Positions 1-9,987 of a DNA stretch of 64,000 bases are shown here, piece by piece. Both the position numbers and the translations under genes were made by a program. A model generated the notes under the pieces. The model ran no database searches. It had not been told where the DNA came from and saw only the letters and a program-made list of their open reading frames with translations. Position 1 is the stretch's first letter. Each line of letters starts with the position of its first letter. The stretch comes from Alphaproteobacteria bacterium. GTDB taxonomy: Bacteria; Pseudomonadota; Alphaproteobacteria; Bin65. The stretch is from assembly GCA_021776685.1 (NCBI GenBank), contig JAJFFJ010000132.1, positions 1 to 64,000 on the forward strand. Direction: 5' to 3'.

Positions 1-3000
1 GATATAGGAGATCGCCCAGCTTCTCAGAGCGAAGTAACGGGATCCGTCTTTCTGCTGATACCCCGCCGCATGCCAGGGCAGGTTCGACATGAGGCCGGGC
101 AATGCGAGCACCACTTCGGCGGCGGCGGTGTCGTCCGGATCACCGGGCCAGTTGCCTGTCTTGTCCCCCGATGTCAGACCGAGCTTGATGAGATGTTCAT
201 GGACCGGCTTCATGAACAGGTCCCACATCTCGCTCAGCGTGCTTTCGATCTGGAGGTTCCAGGCGCCGATGGCACCCCCGCTTGTGGCCAGGCTTTTTTT
301 GTCGATGGACCTCTGGAAGGCGTTGTAGCCGGGCAGCCAGCCGGTCAATTCCGGCTCATCGTTGGTATCGTCATTGAGGTCGCGGGTCAGGAGTTGGCGT
401 ACAGATGCAGTGGTGAGGTCAGGCAGGGACAGCACGTGATCGTCAGTCAGTGCTGTCTGCCCCTGCCTGACGAAGAAGACCGCACCGCCGTGTTCCGTCA
501 CGACCGGCATTACCAAAACTGAGCCCAATGGAAGGTTGGCGCTGATATCGGCAACAGACAAAGGCGCTGGCTCGCCGAGGCCGGCTTCCTCCAGAGCCTT
601 GCGGAAGGCCTCGAAGCTCCCGCGGACCTCGTCATTGATCGACTGGCCGGCGGCCTCGAGACGGGCGACTGCTGCGCGCCACACGGCGCGGAGATCCAGG
701 AGCCGTTCGCCGGTGGCGGCGTCGGCGGTGACCAGGGCGAGCGCGGAATGGGCGCGGAGCATCATCGCGCGGCCGAGTTCGGCACCGAGCAGGGCAGCCT
801 CGACACGCCCTTCCTGAAGCAGCGCCCAGGCGAGTCGATCGCCCTGGCCCCTGGCATGGCGCAGGACACCGCGGGCTTCACCACGCATAGGCGTCGCCGC
901 CACCGTCGTGGCGATGCCGGACAGCAGCTCCTGGAGGGTCTCAGCAACATTCACCCAGTCTTCCCGGGAGACCTGAAGCCGTGCTAGGTCACGTAGAGTT
1001 TCGGCCCACCGCGTCGGCACGTTGTCCTGACGGAACTCCTTCAGCGCCTCAAGATAGGCGGGCTCGGCCCGACGCAGGGTATCGATCTCGCCCGTGGCTT
1101 CGCCCAGGGCCTGCAGCAGGTTGCCGAGATTGTTCTGGGTCTCGGCCCAGACCATCGGGGCATTATCCTGACGGTACTCCTTGAACGCCTCGCCAAAGGC
1201 GGCCTCGCCCCGGCGCAGGGCGTCGATGTCACCCGTCGCCTTGCCCAGCACCCGTAGCAGCGCGCCAAGGTTGTTCTGGGTCCCGGCCCAGTCCATTGGG
1301 GAGTTGTCACGGCGACGTTCCTTGAGCGCTTCGCCAATGGCCGCCTCGGCCCGGCGCAGGGTGCCGATGTCACCCGTCGCCTCGCCCAGCACCTGCAGCA
1401 GGCTCCCGAGGTTGCTCTGAGTCTTGGCCCATTCCATGGGGGAGTTGTCACGACGACGCTCCTTGAGCGCTTCGCCAAAGGCCGCCTCGGACCGGCGCAG
1501 GGTGCCGATGTCACCCGTCGCCTCGCCCAGCTCCAGCAGCAGGTTGCCGAGGTTGTTCTGGGCCGCGGCCCAGTCCATTGGGGCGTTGTCCCGACGGTGC
1601 TCCTTGAGCGCCTCGCCAAAGGCGGCCTCGCCCCGGCGCAGGGTGCCGATGTCACCCGTCGCTTTGCCCAGCATCCGCAGCAGGCTCCCGAGGTTGTTCT
1701 GGGTCCCGGCCCATTCCATCGGGGCGTTATCCTGGCGGTACTCCTTGAGCGCCTCGCCATAGGCCGCCTCGGCCCGGCGCAGGGTACCGATGTCACCCAT
1801 GGCTTCGCCCAGCTCCAGCAGCAGGTTGCCGAGGTTGTTCTGGGTCATTGCCCACTCCATGGGGGTTTTATCCTGGCGACGCTCCTTAAGCGCCTCGCCA
1901 AAGGCCGCCTCGGCCCGGTGCAGGGCGTCGAGGTCGCCGGTGGCCTGGCCAAGGGTCTGCAACAAGATGCCGAGGTTGTTCTGGGTCCCGGCCCAGTCCA
2001 TTGGGGCGTTGTCCCGACGGTGCTCCTTGAGCGCCTCGCCATAGGCGGCCTCGCCCCGGCGCAGGGTGCCGATGTCACCCGTCGCTTTGCCCAGCATCCG
2101 CAGCAGGCTCCCGAGGTTGTTCTGGGTCCCGGCCCGCCCCATCGGGGCATTGTCCCGGCGCCACTCCTTGAGCGCCTCGCCAAAGGCGGCCTCGGCCCGG
2201 CGCAGGGTGTCAATGTCACCTGTGGCCTCGCCCAGTTCATGCAGCAGGGTCCCGAGGTTGTTCTGAGTCTTGGCCCATTCCATCGGGGCGTTGTCCCGTC
2301 GATATTCCTCCAGCGCCTCGCCATAGGCTGCCTCGGCCCGGTGCAGGGTGCCGATGTCACCCATGGCCTGGCCCAGCACCCGCAGCAGGTTGCCGAGATT
2401 GTTCTGGGTCGCGGCCCGTTCCATGGGGGCGTTGTCCTGACCCCGCTCCTTCAGCGCCTCGCCAAAGGAGGCCCCGGCCCGGCGCAGGGCATCGAGGTCG
2501 CCGGTCGCCTCGCCCAGGATCATCAACAGGATGCCAAGGTTGTTCTGGGTCCCGGCCCAGTCCATTGGGGCGTTGTCCCGACGGTGCTCCTTGAGCGCCT
2601 CGCCATAGGCCGCTTCGGCCCGGAGCAGGGTGCCGATGTCACCCGTCGCCTCGCCCAGCATCTGCAGCAGGCTCCCGAGGTTGTGCTGTGTCGCGCCAAT
2701 GGTGCGCCCATGCTCCCGCGAGTCGCCAAGCAGATCCCGGCACTGCTCTAGAAGGCAAATTTTCTCCATTAGTGCATCAGGGGTCGTCGGGGTAATCGCT
2801 TCCGCCCGGTTCCAAAGATCAATCACCTCATCCGGCAGCGGCGGCGCCTCGCCATCCGATTCTCCATTTGAACCGTCGAATTCGTCTTCGCTGGCCTTAG
2901 GTTGGGCCGCCATGAGTGCTGCCAGTTCGGCGAACGCGTTATTGATTCCGATCTTGCGACAACGTCTCAGGAGCACCGCATTTGCTAGGGCGGCTTGGTA

Positions 3001-3156
3001 CATCCCAGTGCCGTCATCAGCCGACTTCATCTCGCTGATCCAAGCCTCAAATTCAACAGACAGCAGCACTTCATGCTGGCGGACGATGCCCGGCTTCTCA
3101 TCAAGAGGCGCCTGCAGGAAGGCCAGGAAAGCATCGCTGATCAGATTTGTGGTCAT
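1..3156 (-). CDS. TPR-CHAT protein (caspase-like protease fold), C-terminus beyond window
   Basis: The minus strand is open from an ATG at 3156 to the window edge, giving 1052 codons without a stop. Residues 1-154 form a unique N-terminal region with an acidic stretch. Residues 155-718 are twelve 47-residue TPR-type repeats with the consensus TQNNLGNLL. After a helical linker, a CHAT domain begins near residue 870 (LPLGSVLVMP) and reaches the conserved LPWHAAG segment near residue 1030. CHAT domains are caspase-like cysteine peptidases fused to TPRs; their catalytic His and Cys normally follow this segment, so here they lie off the window and activity cannot be judged. A GAGGA lies upstream of the ATG. 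A small gene sits 83 bp upstream on the same strand, probably in one operon. TPR-CHAT proteins in bacteria are often linked to defence or regulated cell death; that role is inferred here. Confidence 0.85.
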   Translation of the reverse strand, partial: MTTNLISDAFLAFLQAPLDEKPGIVRQHEVLLSVEFEAWISEMKSADDGTGMYQAALANAVLLRRCRKIGINNAFAELAALMAAQPKASEDEFDGSNGESDGEAPPLPDEVIDLWNRAEAITPTTPDALMEKICLLEQCRDLLGDSREHGRTIGATQHNLGSLLQMLGEATGDIGTLLRAEAAYGEALKEHRRDNAPMDWAGTQNNLGILLMILGEATGDLDALRRAGASFGEALKERGQDNAPMERAATQNNLGNLLRVLGQAMGDIGTLHRAEAAYGEALEEYRRDNAPMEWAKTQNNLGTLLHELGEATGDIDTLRRAEAAFGEALKEWRRDNAPMGRAGTQNNLGSLLRMLGKATGDIGTLRRGEAAYGEALKEHRRDNAPMDWAGTQNNLGILLQTLGQATGDLDALHRAEAAFGEALKERRQDKTPMEWAMTQNNLGNLLLELGEAMGDIGTLRRAEAAYGEALKEYRQDNAPMEWAGTQNNLGSLLRMLGKATGDIGTLRRGEAAFGEALKEHRRDNAPMDWAAAQNNLGNLLLELGEATGDIGTLRRSEAAFGEALKERRRDNSPMEWAKTQSNLGSLLQVLGEATGDIGTLRRAEAAIGEALKERRRDNSPMDWAGTQNNLGALLRVLGKATGDIDALRRGEAAFGEAFKEYRQDNAPMVWAETQNNLGNLLQALGEATGEIDTLRRAEPAYLEALKEFRQDNVPTRWAETLRDLARLQVSREDWVNVAETLQELLSGIATTVAATPMRGEARGVLRHARGQGDRLAWALLQEGRVEAALLGAELGRAMMLRAHSALALVTADAATGERLLDLRAVWRAAVARLEAAGQSINDEVRGSFEAFRKALEEAGLGEPAPLSVADISANLPLGSVLVMPVVTEHGGAVFFVRQGQTALTDDHVLSLPDLTTASVRQLLTRDLNDDTNDEPELTGWLPGYNAFQRSIDKKSLATSGGAIGAWNLQIESTLSEMWDLFMKPVHEHLIKLGLTSGDKTGNWPGDPDDTAAAEVVLALPGLMSNLPWHAAGYQQKDGSRYFALRSWAISYI
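1003..2694 (-). repeat. Twelve tandem 141-bp repeats encoding 47-residue TPR units
   Basis: Twelve consecutive 141-bp units follow each other without any insertion or deletion, each encoding one 47-residue repeat (TQNNLGxLLxxLGEATGDIxT...). Many units are almost identical at DNA level, and a degenerate thirteenth copy begins at 1002 (ETLRDLARLQ). The strict register and high identity point to recent duplication or gene conversion inside the TPR array. Confidence 0.9.
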
Positions 3157-3239
3157 GTTACCCAATCCTCATTGAGGCACAGCCTATTTCGCCAATGATT
3201 AGACGCATGATAATGGCCGATGCGGGGCCGCCATCAGCT

Positions 3240-3656
3240 TTACCGCGCGAGCGAAAACTGAAGCTGCAAGGTTTTCGTGGGCTCCTTTTCCTCGAGGTGC
3301 CCCGGCCAATGCCGGACTAGCGGTCCGGTGGACACGCTTGAAGCCCGTGGCAAACGATCCAGAATAGCTGCCTTAAAGTCTTGAACGGACAGATCCAGCC
3401 AGATGGATACGCCCAGCCCCATTTCATCAAGGCCGAAAGCGCCATGCAGCGCCCTAACTATCCTGCAGTCCATAGGTTCCTGGCCCCGGATTTCTGCCAG
3501 TACAGCAGAAGGGTCGTACGAGGAACCTTGAGGCAGCTCCATGTAAACTTTCAACCACCGACCGAGGCTGAAATCCGACTTCAGTTCAATCAGGTCAGGC
3601 AGGCACTCTCGAGCAGCGCTCACGTGTTTAACAAGATTAAATCGGTCCGACGACAT
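3240..3656 (-). CDS. Hypothetical protein upstream of TPR-CHAT gene
   Basis: A 138-residue soluble protein with no family I recognise. The ATG at 3656 is chosen because AAAGGAAA stands just before it; an in-frame ATG at 3731 would add 25 residues but lacks such a site. The protein is mixed hydrophobic and acidic, without signal peptide or membrane segment, and contains no obvious catalytic motif. It precedes the TPR-CHAT gene by 83 bp on the same strand, so the two may be co-transcribed. A partner, adaptor or substrate role for the CHAT protein is possible but is only inferred from position. Confidence 0.6.
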   Translation of the reverse strand: MSSDRFNLVKHVSAARECLPDLIELKSDFSLGRWLKVYMELPQGSSYDPSAVLAEIRGQEPMDCRIVRALHGAFGLDEMGLGVSIWLDLSVQDFKAAILDRLPRASSVSTGPLVRHWPGHLEEKEPTKTLQLQFSLAR

Positions 3657-3961: not shown

Positions 3962-4549
3962 ATGGACAAGAAGAGCTCTGTAGCGGCTGGTGGCTTGAAC
4001 CAAGGCATCTTGCGCGGCAGGTCTGTCGCCAATGAAGTCCGCCATCTGGAACGGCTACCGCTTGGCACTGCCTATCCCGCGCAAGTTGAGTACATCCGCG
4101 ATTTGTGCAGACGGTCGCCACTTGGTCGGTATGACCTGCGGGGTAAACTGAACACGTCGCTGGTGATCGACCAGACCGGTGTCGGGCGGGCGGTGTTCGA
4201 CCTGTTCCGGGAGCGTGGCATTCCGACCATCGGTATCACGATCAAGGCGGACGAAAGCGAAACGTCGACCCGCGGCGGCTTTCGGGTCGCCAAGCTGCAG
4301 CTGGTGTCCCGACTACAGGCGATGCTTCACAGCGACGACCTGAAGATTGCCGCCGGGCTGAAGGACACGCAGGCGCTGGTGCGGGAGTTGCAGGACTTCC
4401 GGGCCAGCTTTACGTCTGTGGGCCACGCCGTGTTTAATGCGCGTGAAGGCCAACATGATGACCTGGTGCTGGCCGTCGCGATTGGCGTCTGGTACGGCGA
4501 GCGGATGAAGGGCGGCAGCGGGCGGAAGGTGCGGCTGACGGGGATTTAG
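3962..4549 (+). CDS. Phage terminase large subunit, C-terminal nuclease-domain remnant
   Basis: This 195-residue protein matches only the C-terminal RNase H-like nuclease part of large terminases. It has the beta-strand Asp motif LVIDQTGVGRAVFD near residue 70 and the late HDDLVLAVAIGVW motif near residue 165, which carries the second metal-binding acidic cluster. Full-length TerL proteins are 400-600 residues with an N-terminal packaging ATPase; no Walker A or B motif is present and the sequence starts near the ATPase/nuclease boundary (VRHLERLPLGT). It is most simply a prophage remnant. The ribosome-binding site is poor. Its last ~95 bp are duplicated at 5467-5569. Confidence 0.65.
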   Translation: MDKKSSVAAGGLNQGILRGRSVANEVRHLERLPLGTAYPAQVEYIRDLCRRSPLGRYDLRGKLNTSLVIDQTGVGRAVFDLFRERGIPTIGITIKADESETSTRGGFRVAKLQLVSRLQAMLHSDDLKIAAGLKDTQALVRELQDFRASFTSVGHAVFNAREGQHDDLVLAVAIGVWYGERMKGGSGRKVRLTGI

Positions 4550-4552
4550 CTA
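4454..4552 (+). repeat. Left copy of duplicated terminase 3' tail
   Basis: This copy runs from the HDDLVLA motif of the terminase remnant through its stop codon. It matches 5467-5569 at most positions and is nearly identical over the last 70 bp, except for a 3-bp insertion in the right copy. The TPR gene between the copies ends one base after the terminase stop. Confidence 0.85.
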
Positions 4553-5410
4553 AGGCTCGACACCGAGTGAGCGAAGCTCTGCGGCGTATTTGCTCTTCCA
4601 CGGCTGCAATTTCTGGGCCGCGCGAATGTCGGCAATGGCCTGTCGGCGGTTTTTCAAAAAGTACAGATAAGTTATGCCACGGATGTAGTAGGCCCTGGCG
4701 TCCTTAGGGTTCAGGCGAATCGCCTGATCGTAGTCCAGAATGGCCCGGCGGTATTGCTTAAGAGCAAGGTAGCCTTGACCGCGATGGAAGTAGGCACTGG
4801 CATACCGCGGGTTCAGGCGAATTGCCTGGCCGTAGTCGGATATAGCCTGCCGGTACTGCTTGAGTCTGTCATAGGCGTGGCCGCGACGAAGGTAGGCACT
4901 GGCGTCCTTAGGGTTCCGGCGAATCGCCTGATCGTAGTCCTCAATGGCCCGGCGATACTGCTTGAGCCCGGCGTAGGCAATGCCACGCAAAATGTGGGCA
5001 ATTTCGAACTTAAGCCCTAGGCCGATGCTCTGGTCAAAGTCGGCGATGGCTCGGCGGTACCGCTTAAGAGTAAGGTAGACTTGAGCGCGATGGAAATAGG
5101 TCCAAGCGTCCTTCGGGTTCAGGCGGATGGCTTGGTCGTAGTCCGTGATCGCTCGGCGGTATTGCTTGAGGTGCCAGTAGTGGTCGCCGCGGTATCTGTA
5201 GATCTGGGCCGCGTGCGTCGGCCCTGTAACACCCAAGTCACTGCGCTCGCTCCTTCGCTGCCGCAGTAGCCGGGTGCAGGCGGCAATGGCAGCTTTTTTG
5301 TCGGAGGAAAAAACCGTCCGCCCGCAAATACGCTTGTCTTGCTTGATATCGGCCCGCAACGGTGACACTGCCACCAGCGCCAGAATTATCCCTGTCAGCA
5401 ATCCCCGCAT
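4550..5410 (-). CDS. Exported TPR-repeat protein
   Basis: A 286-residue protein with an N-terminal signal peptide (MRGLLTGIILALVAVSP) and about six 34-residue TPRs of the type AYxxRGxxYxxLKQYRRAIxDYDQAIRLNPKDA. TPRs are protein-binding scaffolds; the partner is unknown. The ATG at 5410 is preceded by AGGAGG at ideal spacing; an upstream in-frame ATG at 5458 lacks one and would bury the signal peptide. The stop codon abuts the terminase stop, so the genes converge. Neighbouring repeats are close to identical, suggesting recent internal duplication. It may be cargo acquired with the phage remnant. Confidence 0.8.
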   Translation of the reverse strand: MRGLLTGIILALVAVSPLRADIKQDKRICGRTVFSSDKKAAIAACTRLLRQRRSERSDLGVTGPTHAAQIYRYRGDHYWHLKQYRRAITDYDQAIRLNPKDAWTYFHRAQVYLTLKRYRRAIADFDQSIGLGLKFEIAHILRGIAYAGLKQYRRAIEDYDQAIRRNPKDASAYLRRGHAYDRLKQYRQAISDYGQAIRLNPRYASAYFHRGQGYLALKQYRRAILDYDQAIRLNPKDARAYYIRGITYLYFLKNRRQAIADIRAAQKLQPWKSKYAAELRSLGVEP

Positions 5411-5466
5411 GGCATGTCCTCCTGCCGGAAGTTTATCCAAATTGGCAGTAGGCGGCAATGTGGGCG

Positions 5467-5569
5467 CATGATGCGCCTGGTCCTAGCCGTTGCCATTGGC
5501 GTCTGGTACGGCGAGCGGATGAAGGGGGGTGGCAGTGGGCGGAAGGTGCGGCTGACGGGGATTTAGCTA
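5467..5569 (+). repeat. Right copy of duplicated terminase 3' tail
   Basis: Second copy of the 4454-4552 tail. It carries one extra base just after CATGATG, which breaks the HDD frame, and three extra bases in the Gly-rich coding stretch. Like the left copy it ends exactly where a minus-strand accessory gene stops. Confidence 0.85.
5468..5566 (+). pseudogene. Orphan 32-codon terminase tail
   Basis: The right repeat copy keeps a 32-codon frame (MMRLVLAVAIGVWYGERMKG onwards) in phase with the original terminase C-terminus and ending at the same stop. There is no upstream terminase sequence, so this is a fragment produced by duplication and is unlikely to be functional. Confidence 0.7.
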
Positions 5570-5788
5570 CTTGTCGCAATGGTCGTTTCTGACCGTGCCG
5601 TCTGGCATTCCGGTCTTGCAGGACTTTGCGCCTTTTACATTCACGCCACGCAGGTTTGCGAATAGCAGTGCCGCGCCACGCAGCTTCGTACGGCTCAGGT
5701 TCGCGCCGCGCAGGTCCGCGCGACGCCGTATTAGAGCGCATATTGGAAACACCGCCAAAGCCGATGAAGGGCCTGCGCAGGAGCGCAT
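5567..5788 (-). CDS. Pentapeptide-repeat protein fragment
   Basis: The 73-residue frame contains a short run of A(D/N)LxG pentapeptides (ADLRGANLSRTKLRGAALLF) followed by a Cys-containing tail ending NDHCDK. Pentapeptide repeats fold as a right-handed quadrilateral helix; such proteins usually have many more repeats, so this is probably the C-terminal end of a larger gene. The N-terminal 20 residues look unrelated and no good ribosome-binding site is seen. It ends immediately after the duplicated terminase tail. Confidence 0.5.
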   Translation of the reverse strand: MRSCAGPSSALAVFPICALIRRRADLRGANLSRTKLRGAALLFANLRGVNVKGAKSCKTGMPDGTVRNDHCDK

Positions 5789-5845
5789 CTAGAAAAAAAT
5801 TGGGTTCTCAAGTAGATTGGGGCTTCACGCAAAAGTGGTGGCGCC

Positions 5846-6202
5846 ATGGCAGACGACTCTGAACCTGCTTCCGAAGAAAAGCCTGAAGGCAAACCTTCGC
5901 GACTCATAGAAAGATTGGACCAAATAAGTCGCGCATGGGTGGCGGCTGGAGTAAGCGCGAATTGTGAGGTTTGCAGCCACACCAATTGGTCGGTTGAAAT
6001 TGATGAAAGTTTTGAGGGGTTTGGCCTAACGGCGCGTAATAAAAATTCGATATTGATTGGGACGCTTTTGGCGGTTGACGCGGTTGTGTGCCAGAACTGT
6101 GGCAACGTCAGAATATTTGCCTCAAACAAGATCACCGACCTTAGCCGTGAACGAGGTGATGATGATTCTGGCGGGGGAGAAGACGATGACCCCGCCCAAT
6201 AA
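5846..6202 (+). CDS. Small zinc-ribbon-like hypothetical protein
   Basis: A 118-residue protein with two Cys pairs, CEVC near residue 40 and CQNC near residue 82, the pattern of a zinc ribbon. The N-terminus is charged (EEKPEGKPSRL) and the C-terminus strongly acidic (GDDDSGGGEDDDP). No enzymatic motif is visible. It overlaps the next gene by 17 bp, implying translational coupling. Composition is more AT-rich than the chromosomal genes, in keeping with an accessory origin. Confidence 0.65.
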   Translation: MADDSEPASEEKPEGKPSRLIERLDQISRAWVAAGVSANCEVCSHTNWSVEIDESFEGFGLTARNKNSILIGTLLAVDAVVCQNCGNVRIFASNKITDLSRERGDDDSGGGEDDDPAQ

Positions 6203-6593
6203 GACTCACACCAGCTATAACCTCGTGCGGGCGGCTACGCCCGACACAATCACGTTTAGCAAACCCAAACTCCACGCAGTCACAGAAGAACAGCTTGATG
6301 CATTGGTAAAGAGCGAAAAACCATTTCAGTCGGGAATAGCTCTAACAATGCTAGGCGTAGTGCCTACCAGTTTGCCTGGGGCTTGGCCCTGCATATCCGC
6401 GATATTTACGGGGGCCGCAATTACAAGCGGGCCGGTAGCTTGGACGGTTATATTTGTGGCCGCATTGGTTGGCTGCGTGGTTTGTGGCGCGAACGCAATT
6501 AAAGGCTGGACCGATTCGGAAAAACTACTAAGGGAGCTCAAGGGGCGAGCCAGCGTCGCCCTTAATCAGGATCAGCAAACCGACGACGAATAA
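6186..6593 (+). CDS. Small membrane protein with two predicted TM segments
   Basis: A 135-residue protein starting at an ATG preceded by GGGGGAG. Residues ~50-110 are hydrophobic and glycine-rich and probably make two transmembrane helices separated by a short turn. The N-terminus is soluble and the C-terminus charged (SEKLLRELKGRASVAL). It overlaps the zinc-ribbon gene, so the two are likely a functional pair. I do not recognise the family. Confidence 0.6.
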   Translation: MTPPNKTHTSYNLVRAATPDTITFSKPKLHAVTEEQLDALVKSEKPFQSGIALTMLGVVPTSLPGAWPCISAIFTGAAITSGPVAWTVIFVAALVGCVVCGANAIKGWTDSEKLLRELKGRASVALNQDQQTDDE

Positions 6594-6619
6594 GGCGCAG
6601 GGTTAGCACCTGACGTGCC

Positions 6620-6802
6620 CTACGCCCTTGCACCAATCCGCCGATAGGTGAGGTGCTTACCCTCGATGCCCTTCATGCCGCGTTTGAAGATCGAGAAATA
6701 GCCTTCAATGGTGTTGGTGCGGATGCGATGAGCTATGGTGGAATCTGGGTGATGATGGTCTGACGAAGGCGTCAAATTCAGCAACGGCGTCGCTGTCACC
6801 AC
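6620..6802 (-). pseudogene. IS1595-family transposase remnant with internal deletion
   Basis: Residues 27-60 contain the conserved IS1595 C-terminal motif TNTIEGYFSIFKRGMKG, which includes a catalytic glutamate, but it joins directly to EGKHLTYRR, which normally lies about 40 residues further on. The missing part is the HLHRYLAEFDFRYN region. The join falls at a KGI that occurs on both sides in intact family members. The first ~26 residues do not match the family. A dead fragment. Confidence 0.7.
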
Positions 6803-7170
6803 AACGCCAACTAAGGACGCCGCCTGAACCGAAACGTCAATTCCACCAAAACCCTACCCCGACGCGCGCTGGGCGGCAATGTGGAGGCTGAGCGCTAGAA
6901 TCCGACCCGATTGGGCATCCACAATTCCATTGATGATTGATAGAGACAATTCGTCATCCGGCCAGCGGATGCGTCATTTGGACGGCATCAACGCCAATTC
7001 AAGTGTCTCAATCACTTAGCGGATGATTCGCACTATTTAGGGCTTAGCGATGCGCAGTTACGACAAAAATCAAGCCCAAATTTTGCATTTTTGTGCCCCG
7101 AATGGCGTGACCCGACCGTCAAATTCCGTCTATAAAATGGATGTTGGTGAGACGCATTAGGTCAATAAGT

Positions 7171-7280: not shown

Positions 7281-7451
7281 ACTATATTCAATCATAACTG
7301 AAAATCTTGCAACGGCCACGATTCGGCCTGTACGGGCGGGGCGCAACACACCTGCTGGCCACACCATTATGGGTTATTGGCCTATTCGTTGGCCTAGAAT
7401 TGAAAAAGAAAAGGACTTAATAGCAGAAATGCTCTTAAGCCTTTGTTTTTA

Positions 7452-7528
7452 TGGCGACCCCGGCAGGATTCGAACCTGCGACCTGCGGATTAGAAGTCCG
7501 CTGCTCTATCCAGCTGAGCTACGGGGCC
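7452..7528 (-). tRNA. tRNA-Arg(TCT)
   Basis: The minus strand folds as a cloverleaf beginning GGCCCCGTAGCTCAG and ending in an encoded CCA. The anticodon loop CTTCTAA gives anticodon TCT, and the T arm carries GGTTCGAATCC. The 3' end points toward the phage-derived island at lower coordinates. Confidence 0.93.
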
Positions 7529-7592
7529 CCGTGGTGGAGGCGGCTATCCTACCGGCGACGGGCGGCGGGTGGAATGGGCTCCAGCCTGAGCG

Positions 7593-7886
7593 TTAGCGGG
7601 TGGCGTCCCAGCGGAAATTGTCGGAATAGGTCTTGGGCCGCACCTGATGTTCGCGCGGCTGGCGGATCACATAGTCGAACCCGTTCCGCCGGCAATAGGC
7701 CTTCGCCGCATCCTCGCTGTCGAATTCCAGCCGCAGCTGCTGCCGGGTATCGGCGGAACTGGTCCAGCCCATAAGCCGGTCACGGGTGCGCGGCGCCCCG
7801 GGTTCGAATTCCAGCACCCAACGCGCATTCTTGACCCCGCCGGATTGCATGGCAGAACGGGACGGTCGATAGATTCTCGCCTTCAT
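7593..7886 (-). CDS. NDUFS4-like complex I accessory protein (ETC complex I subunit)
   Basis: A 97-residue protein of the ETC complex I subunit family, the alphaproteobacterial counterpart of mitochondrial NDUFS4. Visible family features are MKARIYRPSRSAMQSG at the start, RWVLEFEP, the LMGWTSSADTRQQLRL core, and the C-terminal KTYSDNFRWD. In mitochondria NDUFS4 helps assemble and stabilise the NADH-binding module. I start at the Met matching the family start; an in-frame ATG at 7916 would add ten residues. It stands alone between two tRNAs. Confidence 0.85.
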   Translation of the reverse strand: MKARIYRPSRSAMQSGGVKNARWVLEFEPGAPRTRDRLMGWTSSADTRQQLRLEFDSEDAAKAYCRRNGFDYVIRQPREHQVRPKTYSDNFRWDATR

Positions 7887-7930
7887 CGGCCCGGACACAT
7901 CCTCTGTTACATCCATTCATCTTGGCTGAC

Positions 7931-8007
7931 TGGTCGGGGCGAGAGGATTCGAACCTCCGGCCCCCGGCTCCCAAAGCCGGTGCTCTACCAGGCTGAGCTA
8001 CACCCCG
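7931..8007 (-). tRNA. tRNA-Pro(TGG)
   Basis: The minus strand reads CGGGGTGTAGCTCAGCCTGG and ends CGCCCCGACCA, with CCA encoded. The anticodon stem-loop CGGCTTTGGGAGCCG gives anticodon TGG, and the T arm has GGTTCGAATCC. All four stems pair. Confidence 0.93.
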
Positions 8008-8111
8008 CAGCAGCCTCGGGAAGAATAGGTATGCAAATCCCACGCTTCAAGCTCGCCAATGCCGCATCGGCGACCTAACTGATGGAAACACCAAACAATG
8101 GAGGGCCATCA

Positions 8112-8774
8112 ATGGGCCGCGGCATCACAAACGTCACCGACAACATTCTCGATTACATCCGCGCCACAACCCTGCGCGAGGGAGATACCTTGAACCGCCT
8201 GCGCGAGACGACTGCCGCACGCAGCAACGCGGGGATGCAGATATCGCCGGAGCAGGGGCAGTTTCTGGGATTGATCACCAACCTGATCGGCGCGCGGGTG
8301 TGCGTCGAGGTGGGCACGTTTACCGGCTACAGCGCCCTTGCCGTGGCCAGCGCCCTGCCCCCGGACGGACGCCTCTACGCCTGCGATGTGAGCGACGAAT
8401 ATACTGCCGTGGGCGTCCCCTTCTGGCAGGAGGCCGGTGTCGCCGACCGCATCGACCTGCGCATCGGGCCGGCGCTGGAGACCCTCGACGCCCTCGCAGC
8501 CGAAGGCCTGACCGGTCAGGTGGATATGGCCTTCATCGACGCCGACAAGGAGAACTACAGCGCCTATTACGAAAAACTGCTGGGCATGCTGCGGCCCAAC
8601 GGACTGATCATCGTCGACAACGTGTTGTGGGGCGGGTCCGTGGCTGACACCGGCAATCAGAAAGAGTCTACGGAGGCCATCCGCGCGCTCAATATCACGG
8701 TCGGTCAGGACGACCGGGTAGAGTGCAGCCTGGTGCCCCTTGGTGACGGCATGCTGTTGGCAAGGAAGAAGTAA
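8112..8774 (+). CDS. Class I SAM-dependent O-methyltransferase (CCoAOMT-like)
   Basis: A 220-residue member of the caffeoyl-CoA O-methyltransferase-like family (Methyltransf_3). The SAM-binding motif VEVGTFTGYSALAVA lies near residue 65, followed by YACDVSD, the FIDADKENYSAYYE metal-site stretch near residue 145, and IIVDNVLWGGSV. Such enzymes methylate catechol-type hydroxyls with a divalent metal; the substrate is not evident. The ATG at 8112 has GGAGGG six bases upstream; an in-frame ATG at 8082 lacks this. It is monocistronic. Confidence 0.88.
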   Translation: MGRGITNVTDNILDYIRATTLREGDTLNRLRETTAARSNAGMQISPEQGQFLGLITNLIGARVCVEVGTFTGYSALAVASALPPDGRLYACDVSDEYTAVGVPFWQEAGVADRIDLRIGPALETLDALAAEGLTGQVDMAFIDADKENYSAYYEKLLGMLRPNGLIIVDNVLWGGSVADTGNQKESTEAIRALNITVGQDDRVECSLVPLGDGMLLARKK

Positions 8775-8826
8775 TTTCAAATAGTTACTAGGTTTTTCTT
8801 GTGTTTAAAGTCAGCAAAATCACTGC

Positions 8827-9987
8827 CTAGATTGCCGTCAGCGCGCGGACCTCTTGCCGGATGGTCCCTGCGTGGGGGATATCCTCCAGCATGGTCAGCC
8901 AGTGGGCCGGCGGCCGGCGGCCGCGGGAGTGTGACCAGGTGATCTCATCCAGCAGCGCGACCGCATTTGCGGGCAGCAGATCGGGTTCTTCATGGCCCGC
9001 CAGAGCCGCCCAGATGCGGGACCAACACCGCCCGACCGCGTAAGGATTGTAACCACCGCCGCCCAGCACCAGCACCCGCGGCGCAAGGGGCGCCAGAGCC
9101 AACACTGCAGCCACATGGGCATTGTTCGACAGGCTGAGCTTGCTCTGCGGATCGTCGGCAAGCGCATCCGCGCCACCTTGCAGAATCAACGCGTCGGGCC
9201 GAAATTTCGCCACTGCCGGCACAATTCCTTCGTGCAGCAGCCAGCCGAATTCGTCGTCATTCAGTTCCCGCGGCGCGGCGAAATTATAGAGATGCCGGTC
9301 CGGGTCTGATATCCGCCCGGTGAACGGCCAGCGTTCCCGCTCATGCACGGACGCGATCAGGACACGGCCGTCATCGGCCAATGCATCCTCCACTCCATCG
9401 CAGTGATGGGCGTCCACATCCACATAGGCGACCCGCGTGAGTCCCTGATCCAGGAACGCAAGAATGCCCAGCACGGGATCATTGAAATAGCAGAAGCCAC
9501 TGGCGCGATCCGGCTGGCCATGGTGGGTGCCGCCCGCCGGGCTGTAGATCTTGCCGCCATCCCGCAGCAAGTCTGCCGCCAGCAAGGTTGCGCCACACGC
9601 CGTTGCCGGCCGCCGGAAAATTTCACCGAAGACGGGATTGCCGTTGGCGCCCAGGTTGTGGCGCGCCTTGTAGGCCTCGGTGGTCCGCTGCTCCCGCTCG
9701 CAGTCGATCACCGCCTCGATATAGGTCGGATCGTGAAACCGGCTGAGCTGTTCCGGCGTCGCGGTTGGACTGTCGATATAGATGTCGTCCGGCAGCCAGC
9801 CGAGGGCACGGCACAGGTCGATCACCAGTGACACCCGGGGAATGGCCAGCGGATGCTTGCTGCCATAGCGGGAGCGGCGATAGATCTCGCTGCCGATGAA
9901 ACGCGGAGCCTGCATGAGGAATGACGTAGCGCTCCGTTCGCCGGTGGGCAATGCCGCTCCCTTGCCTCCCCCTGGCGAAGCGGTCAT
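8827..9987 (-). CDS. Histone deacetylase-like / AcuC family deacetylase
   Basis: Up to 386 residues of the arginase/deacetylase fold. Visible are the active-site GGTHHGQPDRASGFCYFND segment, the zinc-binding AYVDVDAHHCDGVEDA, LQGGADALADD with the second zinc Asp, and the GGGGYNP loop near the end. Bacterial members deacetylate small amines, polyamines or proteins such as acetyl-CoA synthetase. The start is uncertain: ATG 9987, a TTG at 9951 behind AAGGGAG, or ATG 9915, which fits the family N-terminus best. It runs divergently from the thiamine-transport operon, about 10 bp from the riboswitch. Confidence 0.85.
   Translation of the reverse strand: MTASPGGGKGAALPTGERSATSFLMQAPRFIGSEIYRRSRYGSKHPLAIPRVSLVIDLCRALGWLPDDIYIDSPTATPEQLSRFHDPTYIEAVIDCEREQRTTEAYKARHNLGANGNPVFGEIFRRPATACGATLLAADLLRDGGKIYSPAGGTHHGQPDRASGFCYFNDPVLGILAFLDQGLTRVAYVDVDAHHCDGVEDALADDGRVLIASVHERERWPFTGRISDPDRHLYNFAAPRELNDDEFGWLLHEGIVPAVAKFRPDALILQGGADALADDPQSKLSLSNNAHVAAVLALAPLAPRVLVLGGGGYNPYAVGRCWSRIWAALAGHEEPDLLPANAVALLDEITWSHSRGRRPPAHWLTMLEDIPHAGTIRQEVRALTAI

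Follow-up and report, generated by a model that had tools for sequence, protein, structure and literature searches.

What does a gene for a TPR-CHAT protein that breaks off at the edge of a contig tell us about the DNA that carries it, and does the small open reading frame ahead of it belong to the same system? The DNA studied here, referred to below as the window, is a stretch of 64,000 nt from an Alphaproteobacteria bacterium (GTDB Bin65; assembly GCA_021776685.1, contig JAJFFJ010000132.1, labelled C38), and its base 1 is the end of that contig of 102,025 bases. From an ATG at position 3156, a frame of 1052 codons runs on the minus strand to base 1 without a stop, in the following setting:

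1 to 3156, minus strand: TPR-CHAT gene, open from its ATG, 3' end missing as the contig ends inside the CHAT domain
2693 to 3156, minus strand: N-terminal helical region of the TPR-CHAT protein, without a Pfam match and shared in part only with sister gene B
1020 to 2692, minus strand: tandem array of 47-residue TPR-like repeats forming helical hairpins, 11.9 copies of 141 nt (TRF score 2000), with a weak Pfam match to TPR_10
3240 to 3656, minus strand: orphan ORF of 138 aa, with the ribosome-binding-site-like AAAGGAAA upstream of its ATG, ending 83 nt before the TPR-CHAT start

By TRF the repeat array lies far beyond chance, and its helical hairpins form the best-confidence part of a single-sequence structure model that is useful for the array only. 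Pfam makes no CHAT call in the window ORF, which is too short to score at the contig end; its final 333 residues are 86% identical (E about 1e-32) to the pre-CHAT and CHAT region of gene B, a sister copy on a second contig of the genome, C120. An earlier note on this DNA had described a TPR array running into the start of a CHAT domain, and the array found by TRF, together with this match to a sister with a full CHAT domain, bears out that description: a TPR array precedes a CHAT domain, as in TPR-CHAT proteases. At least the last 100 nt at the end of C38 are identical to sister B, so the assembly broke in a repeat at window base 1.

The genome holds two further TPR-CHAT copies, both at the start of C120: the contig opens inside gene A, and gene B follows, oriented likewise. 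Both have a full CHAT domain (Pfam scores of 105 and 114 bits for A and B, against a curated cut-off of 24) with the catalytic-type motifs YTHGSG and LAACDSG, which align with the catalytic dyad of the Craspase TPR-CHAT protein Csx29; in Craspase, this His/Cys pair is the dyad needed for cleavage (PMC9729208). A CHAT profile built from five sequences, namely A, B and three distant relatives, matches the Craspase TPR-CHAT structures with E = 3e-15 and separase with E = 2e-4, the H and C motifs being aligned. The earlier note had staked its protease reading on a CHAT His-Cys pair being present; the pair is there in both sisters, while the sequence of the window copy stops before those positions. 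Identity between A and B jumps along the genes, from 0.5-0.77 in the linker up to 0.88-0.98 in one patch, back to about 0.6 and then mostly to 0.9-1.0 in the last 400 nt, with the catalytic half being the best-kept part. Overall, the window copy is nearest to B; the exception is the patch, in which B itself is like A. This patchy identity points to recombination among the TPR-CHAT copies.

The setting of the three copies looks like that of a phage-derived mobile element inserted in a tRNA gene. To the right of the small ORF, the window contains:

3962 to 4549, plus strand: C-terminal fragment of a terminase large subunit (Terminase_6C, 9.7e-5; phrog_27743, 1e-30; 81% amino acid identity to the C120 terminase part)
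4550 to 5458, minus strand: separate TPR-repeat protein of 302 aa with a signal-like N-terminus (TPR_1, 1.9e-39), no paralogue of the TPR-CHAT array
5476 to 5566, plus strand: second remnant of the terminase 3' end, 78% identical over 91 bp to C120:10386-10473
6620 to 6802, minus strand: possible remnant of an IS1595-type transposase (E = 0.12, below the cut-off)
7452 to 7528, minus strand: tRNA-Arg(TCT), target gene of the element (ARAGORN); in the relative G008 the same tRNA adjoins tRNA-Pro and a methyltransferase gene
7452 to 7499, minus strand: 48-bp att-like repeat, the last 48 bp of tRNA-Arg(TCT), with an exact copy at C120:16506-16553
7931 to 8007: tRNA-Pro (ARAGORN)

The 48-bp repeat occurs, at 100% identity, exactly twice in the window and C120, and the orientation of the C120 copy fits a continuation of C38, read towards base 1, into C120. 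About 170 bp inwards from the C120 repeat starts a tyrosine integrase of 414 aa with an arm-binding domain, so that an integrase lies beside an att repeat derived from a tRNA 3' end, as in tRNA-targeted integrative elements. After it follow an AlpA-like protein, a Prim-Pol primase, a putative small terminase subunit and a split large terminase; there is no capsid gene among the nine C120 proteins scanned. Relatives of the same family share the gene order of the window at 7.45 to 9.99 kb, and none of them shares it at 1 to 7.45 kb, left of tRNA-Arg, as judged from tblastn without sum statistics (a tblastx table, inflated by sum statistics, was set aside). A complete empty site was not found in a relative: the tRNA side is syntenic, and past tRNA-Arg G008 has another gene than C120 has past 16553. 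Taken together, the lack of synteny, the att-like repeats and the integrase confirm, and define more sharply, the accessory island beside phage remnants and a tRNA that the earlier note had proposed. Very probably, window 1 to 7.45 kb and C120:1-16.55 kb form opposite ends of a single satellite-like integrative element, which would span at least 24 kb and hold three or more TPR-CHAT genes, C38 continuing into C120. Such an element resembles phage satellites and P4-like elements in its tRNA site, its tyrosine integrase with an N-terminal arm domain, its AlpA-like regulator, its primase and its accessory cargo, but differs from them in carrying terminase genes with a split large subunit.

Several further features of the element deserve mention. 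Two copies of the terminase 3' end (window 4034-4549 and 5476-5566; cf. C120:10386-10901) flank the TPR gene at 4550-5458, as if cargo had been swapped in behind a terminase gene. On C120, two proteins with membrane segments, of 489 and 829 aa (5560-7029 and 7388-9877, minus strand), lie between gene B and the terminase and have no Pfam, PHROG or PADLOC match; by eye, a region of the larger one is reminiscent of peptidoglycan glycosyltransferases. Between the terminase and primase genes, C120:13201-13677 (plus strand) encodes a protein of 158 aa that looks HEPN-like by eye and weakly matches the candidate defence family PDC-S19 (E = 7e-5).

What, then, could these proteases do? In the TPR-CHAT family the repeat array is the sensor and the CHAT domain the executioner, and P4-like elements and phage satellites carry hotspots of anti-phage cargo. 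Most likely, the gene encodes a caspase-like protease that is mobile, senses through its repeats and serves immunity or suicide. The repeat array would bind a ligand derived from an invader or from stress, whereupon the linker would shift and the His/Cys pocket of the CHAT domain open; the opened protease could then cut a host or element protein, and this cleavage would lead to dormancy, death or another anti-phage response. There is precedent for such a course in Craspase, where a buried His/Cys pocket becomes open on activation and the product of a nearby gene is cleaved (PMC9729208, PMC10028731), and in Podospora, where a gasdermin encoded next to a TPR-bearing CHAT protease is activated by that protease (PMC12881547).

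In its entirety, this account of a satellite-like element in tRNA-Arg(TCT) with at least three recombining TPR-CHAT genes and a ligand-triggered protease has about an even chance of being right. It is favoured by the full CHAT domains of the sisters, the profile match to Craspase, the att repeat with its integrase set, the absence of the region from relatives and the jump in identity between A and B, and also by the conflict-type setting of a related gene described below, the nearby encoding of CHAT substrates and the gasdermin precedent. Anti-phage genes are known to be harboured by satellites and prophages, and with the precedents in the family this makes invader-triggered proteolysis that protects the element or its host the likeliest use. 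Against it stand the PADLOC defence models, which match neither the TPR-CHAT proteins nor the small protein, the His/Cys positions of the window copy, which fall outside the assembly, the decay of gene B, the C38-C120 junction, which lies outside the sequenced DNA, and the non-defence cargo common on mobile elements. That C38 joins C120, that the window copy is intact, that its protease is active and that it serves defence are inferences. The gene is a new member of a type already known, the TPR-CHAT proteases; what the analysis adds is its setting in an integrative element, in a notable multi-copy and apparently recombining arrangement. If the account holds, there are sets of caspase-like, repeat-sensing proteases outside CRISPR that are borne by mobile elements, in which near-identical repeats and gene conversion between copies would be a simple way to vary sensing while the cutter stays constant; the locus would also offer a compact place to find the trigger and substrate of CRISPR-free TPR-CHAT proteases.

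Does the small ORF take part in this? The earlier note had placed a 138-residue protein on the same strand ahead of the TPR-CHAT gene, and the ORF is indeed there, from 3656 down to 3240. It is probably coding: its codon score is the best of its six frames, yet weak, at 0.04 bits per codon compared with 0.26 +/- 0.16 for long native ORFs. It belongs to no family in Pfam, NCBIfam, PADLOC or PHROGs. Homologues are lacking in 11 genomes from its own family or order, in 385 genomes of the class, and in genome contigs, plasmids, phages and viral contigs, and none turned up among the genes that lie upstream of 80 CHAT genes in this class. Weak matches in the class genomes were dismissed as chance, as they fall in an outer-membrane-protein-like gene, in or antisense to a dehydrogenase-like gene, or in frames with stops. 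Such a record, with the weak codon score, fits an orphan or chance ORF unrelated to the protease, in which case the TPR-CHAT protein would act alone on a host substrate encoded elsewhere. Equally in keeping with this, B starts about 160 nt behind A with no small gene in between, and no same-strand ORF lies close before the TPR-CHAT gene of a Bradyrhizobium sp. 131 plasmid (WP_247904198.1), a PF12770 CHAT protein with a 47-residue TPR array that shares family, domain order and repeat style with ours, but whose sequence identity is low (26% over the CHAT half). Speaking against it are the shared strand, the gap of 83 nt, the plausible ribosome-binding site, the lack of a convincing terminator between the two genes, and the ORF that occupies the equivalent place ahead of the TPR-CHAT gene in the nearest relative, G157. 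On balance, an unrelated ORF comes only slightly short of an even chance. The partnership proposed in the earlier note is unsupported, as no homologues that keep the neighbourhood were found in the collections searched, sister B lacks the small gene and a single weak look-alike, beside the nearest TPR-CHAT relative, is not significant by itself. As to what the small protein might do, a co-transcribed regulator or adaptor is its likeliest role, a tentative assignment that we consider doubtful, with unrelated cargo as the other option.

A different objection concerns the proteases themselves, which could be a decaying cargo family or one with a use other than defence, for instance against proteins of the element itself or as part of the host's signalling. 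Mobile elements carry much non-defence cargo. Most of the N-terminal region is missing from sister B, whose remaining sequence falls into two frames with an ATGA overlap, so that one copy or more is decaying; the terminase remnants and the possible transposase scar are in line with this. In contrast, A and the window copy are open over long repeat arrays, and it is the catalytic half that is best kept between A and B. Decay or a non-defence use is rather unlikely.

The relatives of the gene bear on a third possibility, namely an adaptor or sensor role for the small protein as one of a fast-evolving family of CHAT neighbours whose N-terminal domain is HTH-like; the proteins next to the genes of G157 and G061 would be longer members of that family. 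CHAT domains occur in 76 of the 385 class genomes, where G157 holds the sole close relative of our TPR-CHAT by single-sequence search; CHAT profile scans of genome contigs found nothing, nor did those of viral contigs and phages. Directly before the G157 gene lies a same-strand ORF of 270 aa, whose product shares 27% identity over 49 aa with the small protein by BLASTP (E 0.003-0.02 for that single comparison). The score was reached by 5 of 2000 shuffles and ranks second among 3946 ORFs from CHAT loci, but in that set its E value is 0.86, so the G157 protein was not accepted as a relative on this alone; used as a query, it found itself only, plus weak matches. In G061, the second nearest relative, an ORF of 303 aa follows the TPR-CHAT gene and shows no similarity to the small protein, and Pfam lends no support. 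No rule of a small protein accompanying TPR-CHAT emerges, since the G157 ORF is weakly similar, the G061 ORF dissimilar and downstream, and Bradyrhizobium has none. Fast-changing CHAT neighbours are possible from these sequences, but membership of the small protein in one such family is unlikely. It is more improbable still that the locus is a satellite-borne immune system in which tandem TPR-CHAT proteases exchange arrays and catalytic halves through recombination and have in common one fast-evolving small adaptor, which heads the operon.

Could the small protein instead be a substrate or inhibitor of the protease, cut once the TPR array is triggered, like Csx30 or gasdermin beside their proteases? 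The neighbouring gene order would suit this, and CHAT substrates are commonly encoded nearby (PMC9729208); the Podospora pair likewise places a smaller gene beside a TPR-bearing CHAT protease. The neighbour here, however, is of 138 residues only and has no gasdermin match nor any recognisable effector, pore or sigma-binding domain; its single-sequence fold is uninformative (mean pLDDT 37), and it is not kept beside the sister genes or the related ones. A role as substrate or inhibitor is quite unlikely, and the earlier note's claim of a protease partner would gain weight only from a demonstration that the small protein is bound or cleaved.

Finally, membership in Craspase (type III-E), with which the locus shares the two-domain type of a TPR region followed by CHAT, has practically no probability and is ruled out for the sequence at hand: neither the window nor C120 shows a CRISPR array pattern, and the scanned element genes include no Cas7-11, Csx30 or sigma factor. 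The protein also differs from Csx29 in its much longer array, built of near-identical 47-residue repeats, and in being carried in several copies on an integrative element.

Other CHAT loci of the class are of interest in their own right. The G061 locus (L138:3333-10931) combines its TPR-CHAT gene and 303-aa neighbour with a MoxR-like ATPase and a trypsin-like protease similar to LmuA (E = 3e-11), and thereby resembles ternary conflict systems; a setting beside MoxR-like and trypsin-like genes has been described for conflict systems (PMC10907252). The G157 gene (L025:2207-8249) directly adjoins genes resembling those of lasso-peptide maturation (asparagine-synthetase-like and PqqD-like/B-protein-like). 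Several further CHAT loci (L086, L090, L094, L100, L114, L116, L134 and L135) have a very large ORF (about 2000-2400 aa) directly upstream of the CHAT gene on the same strand, a pairing that recurs in the class and is distinct from the one in the window.
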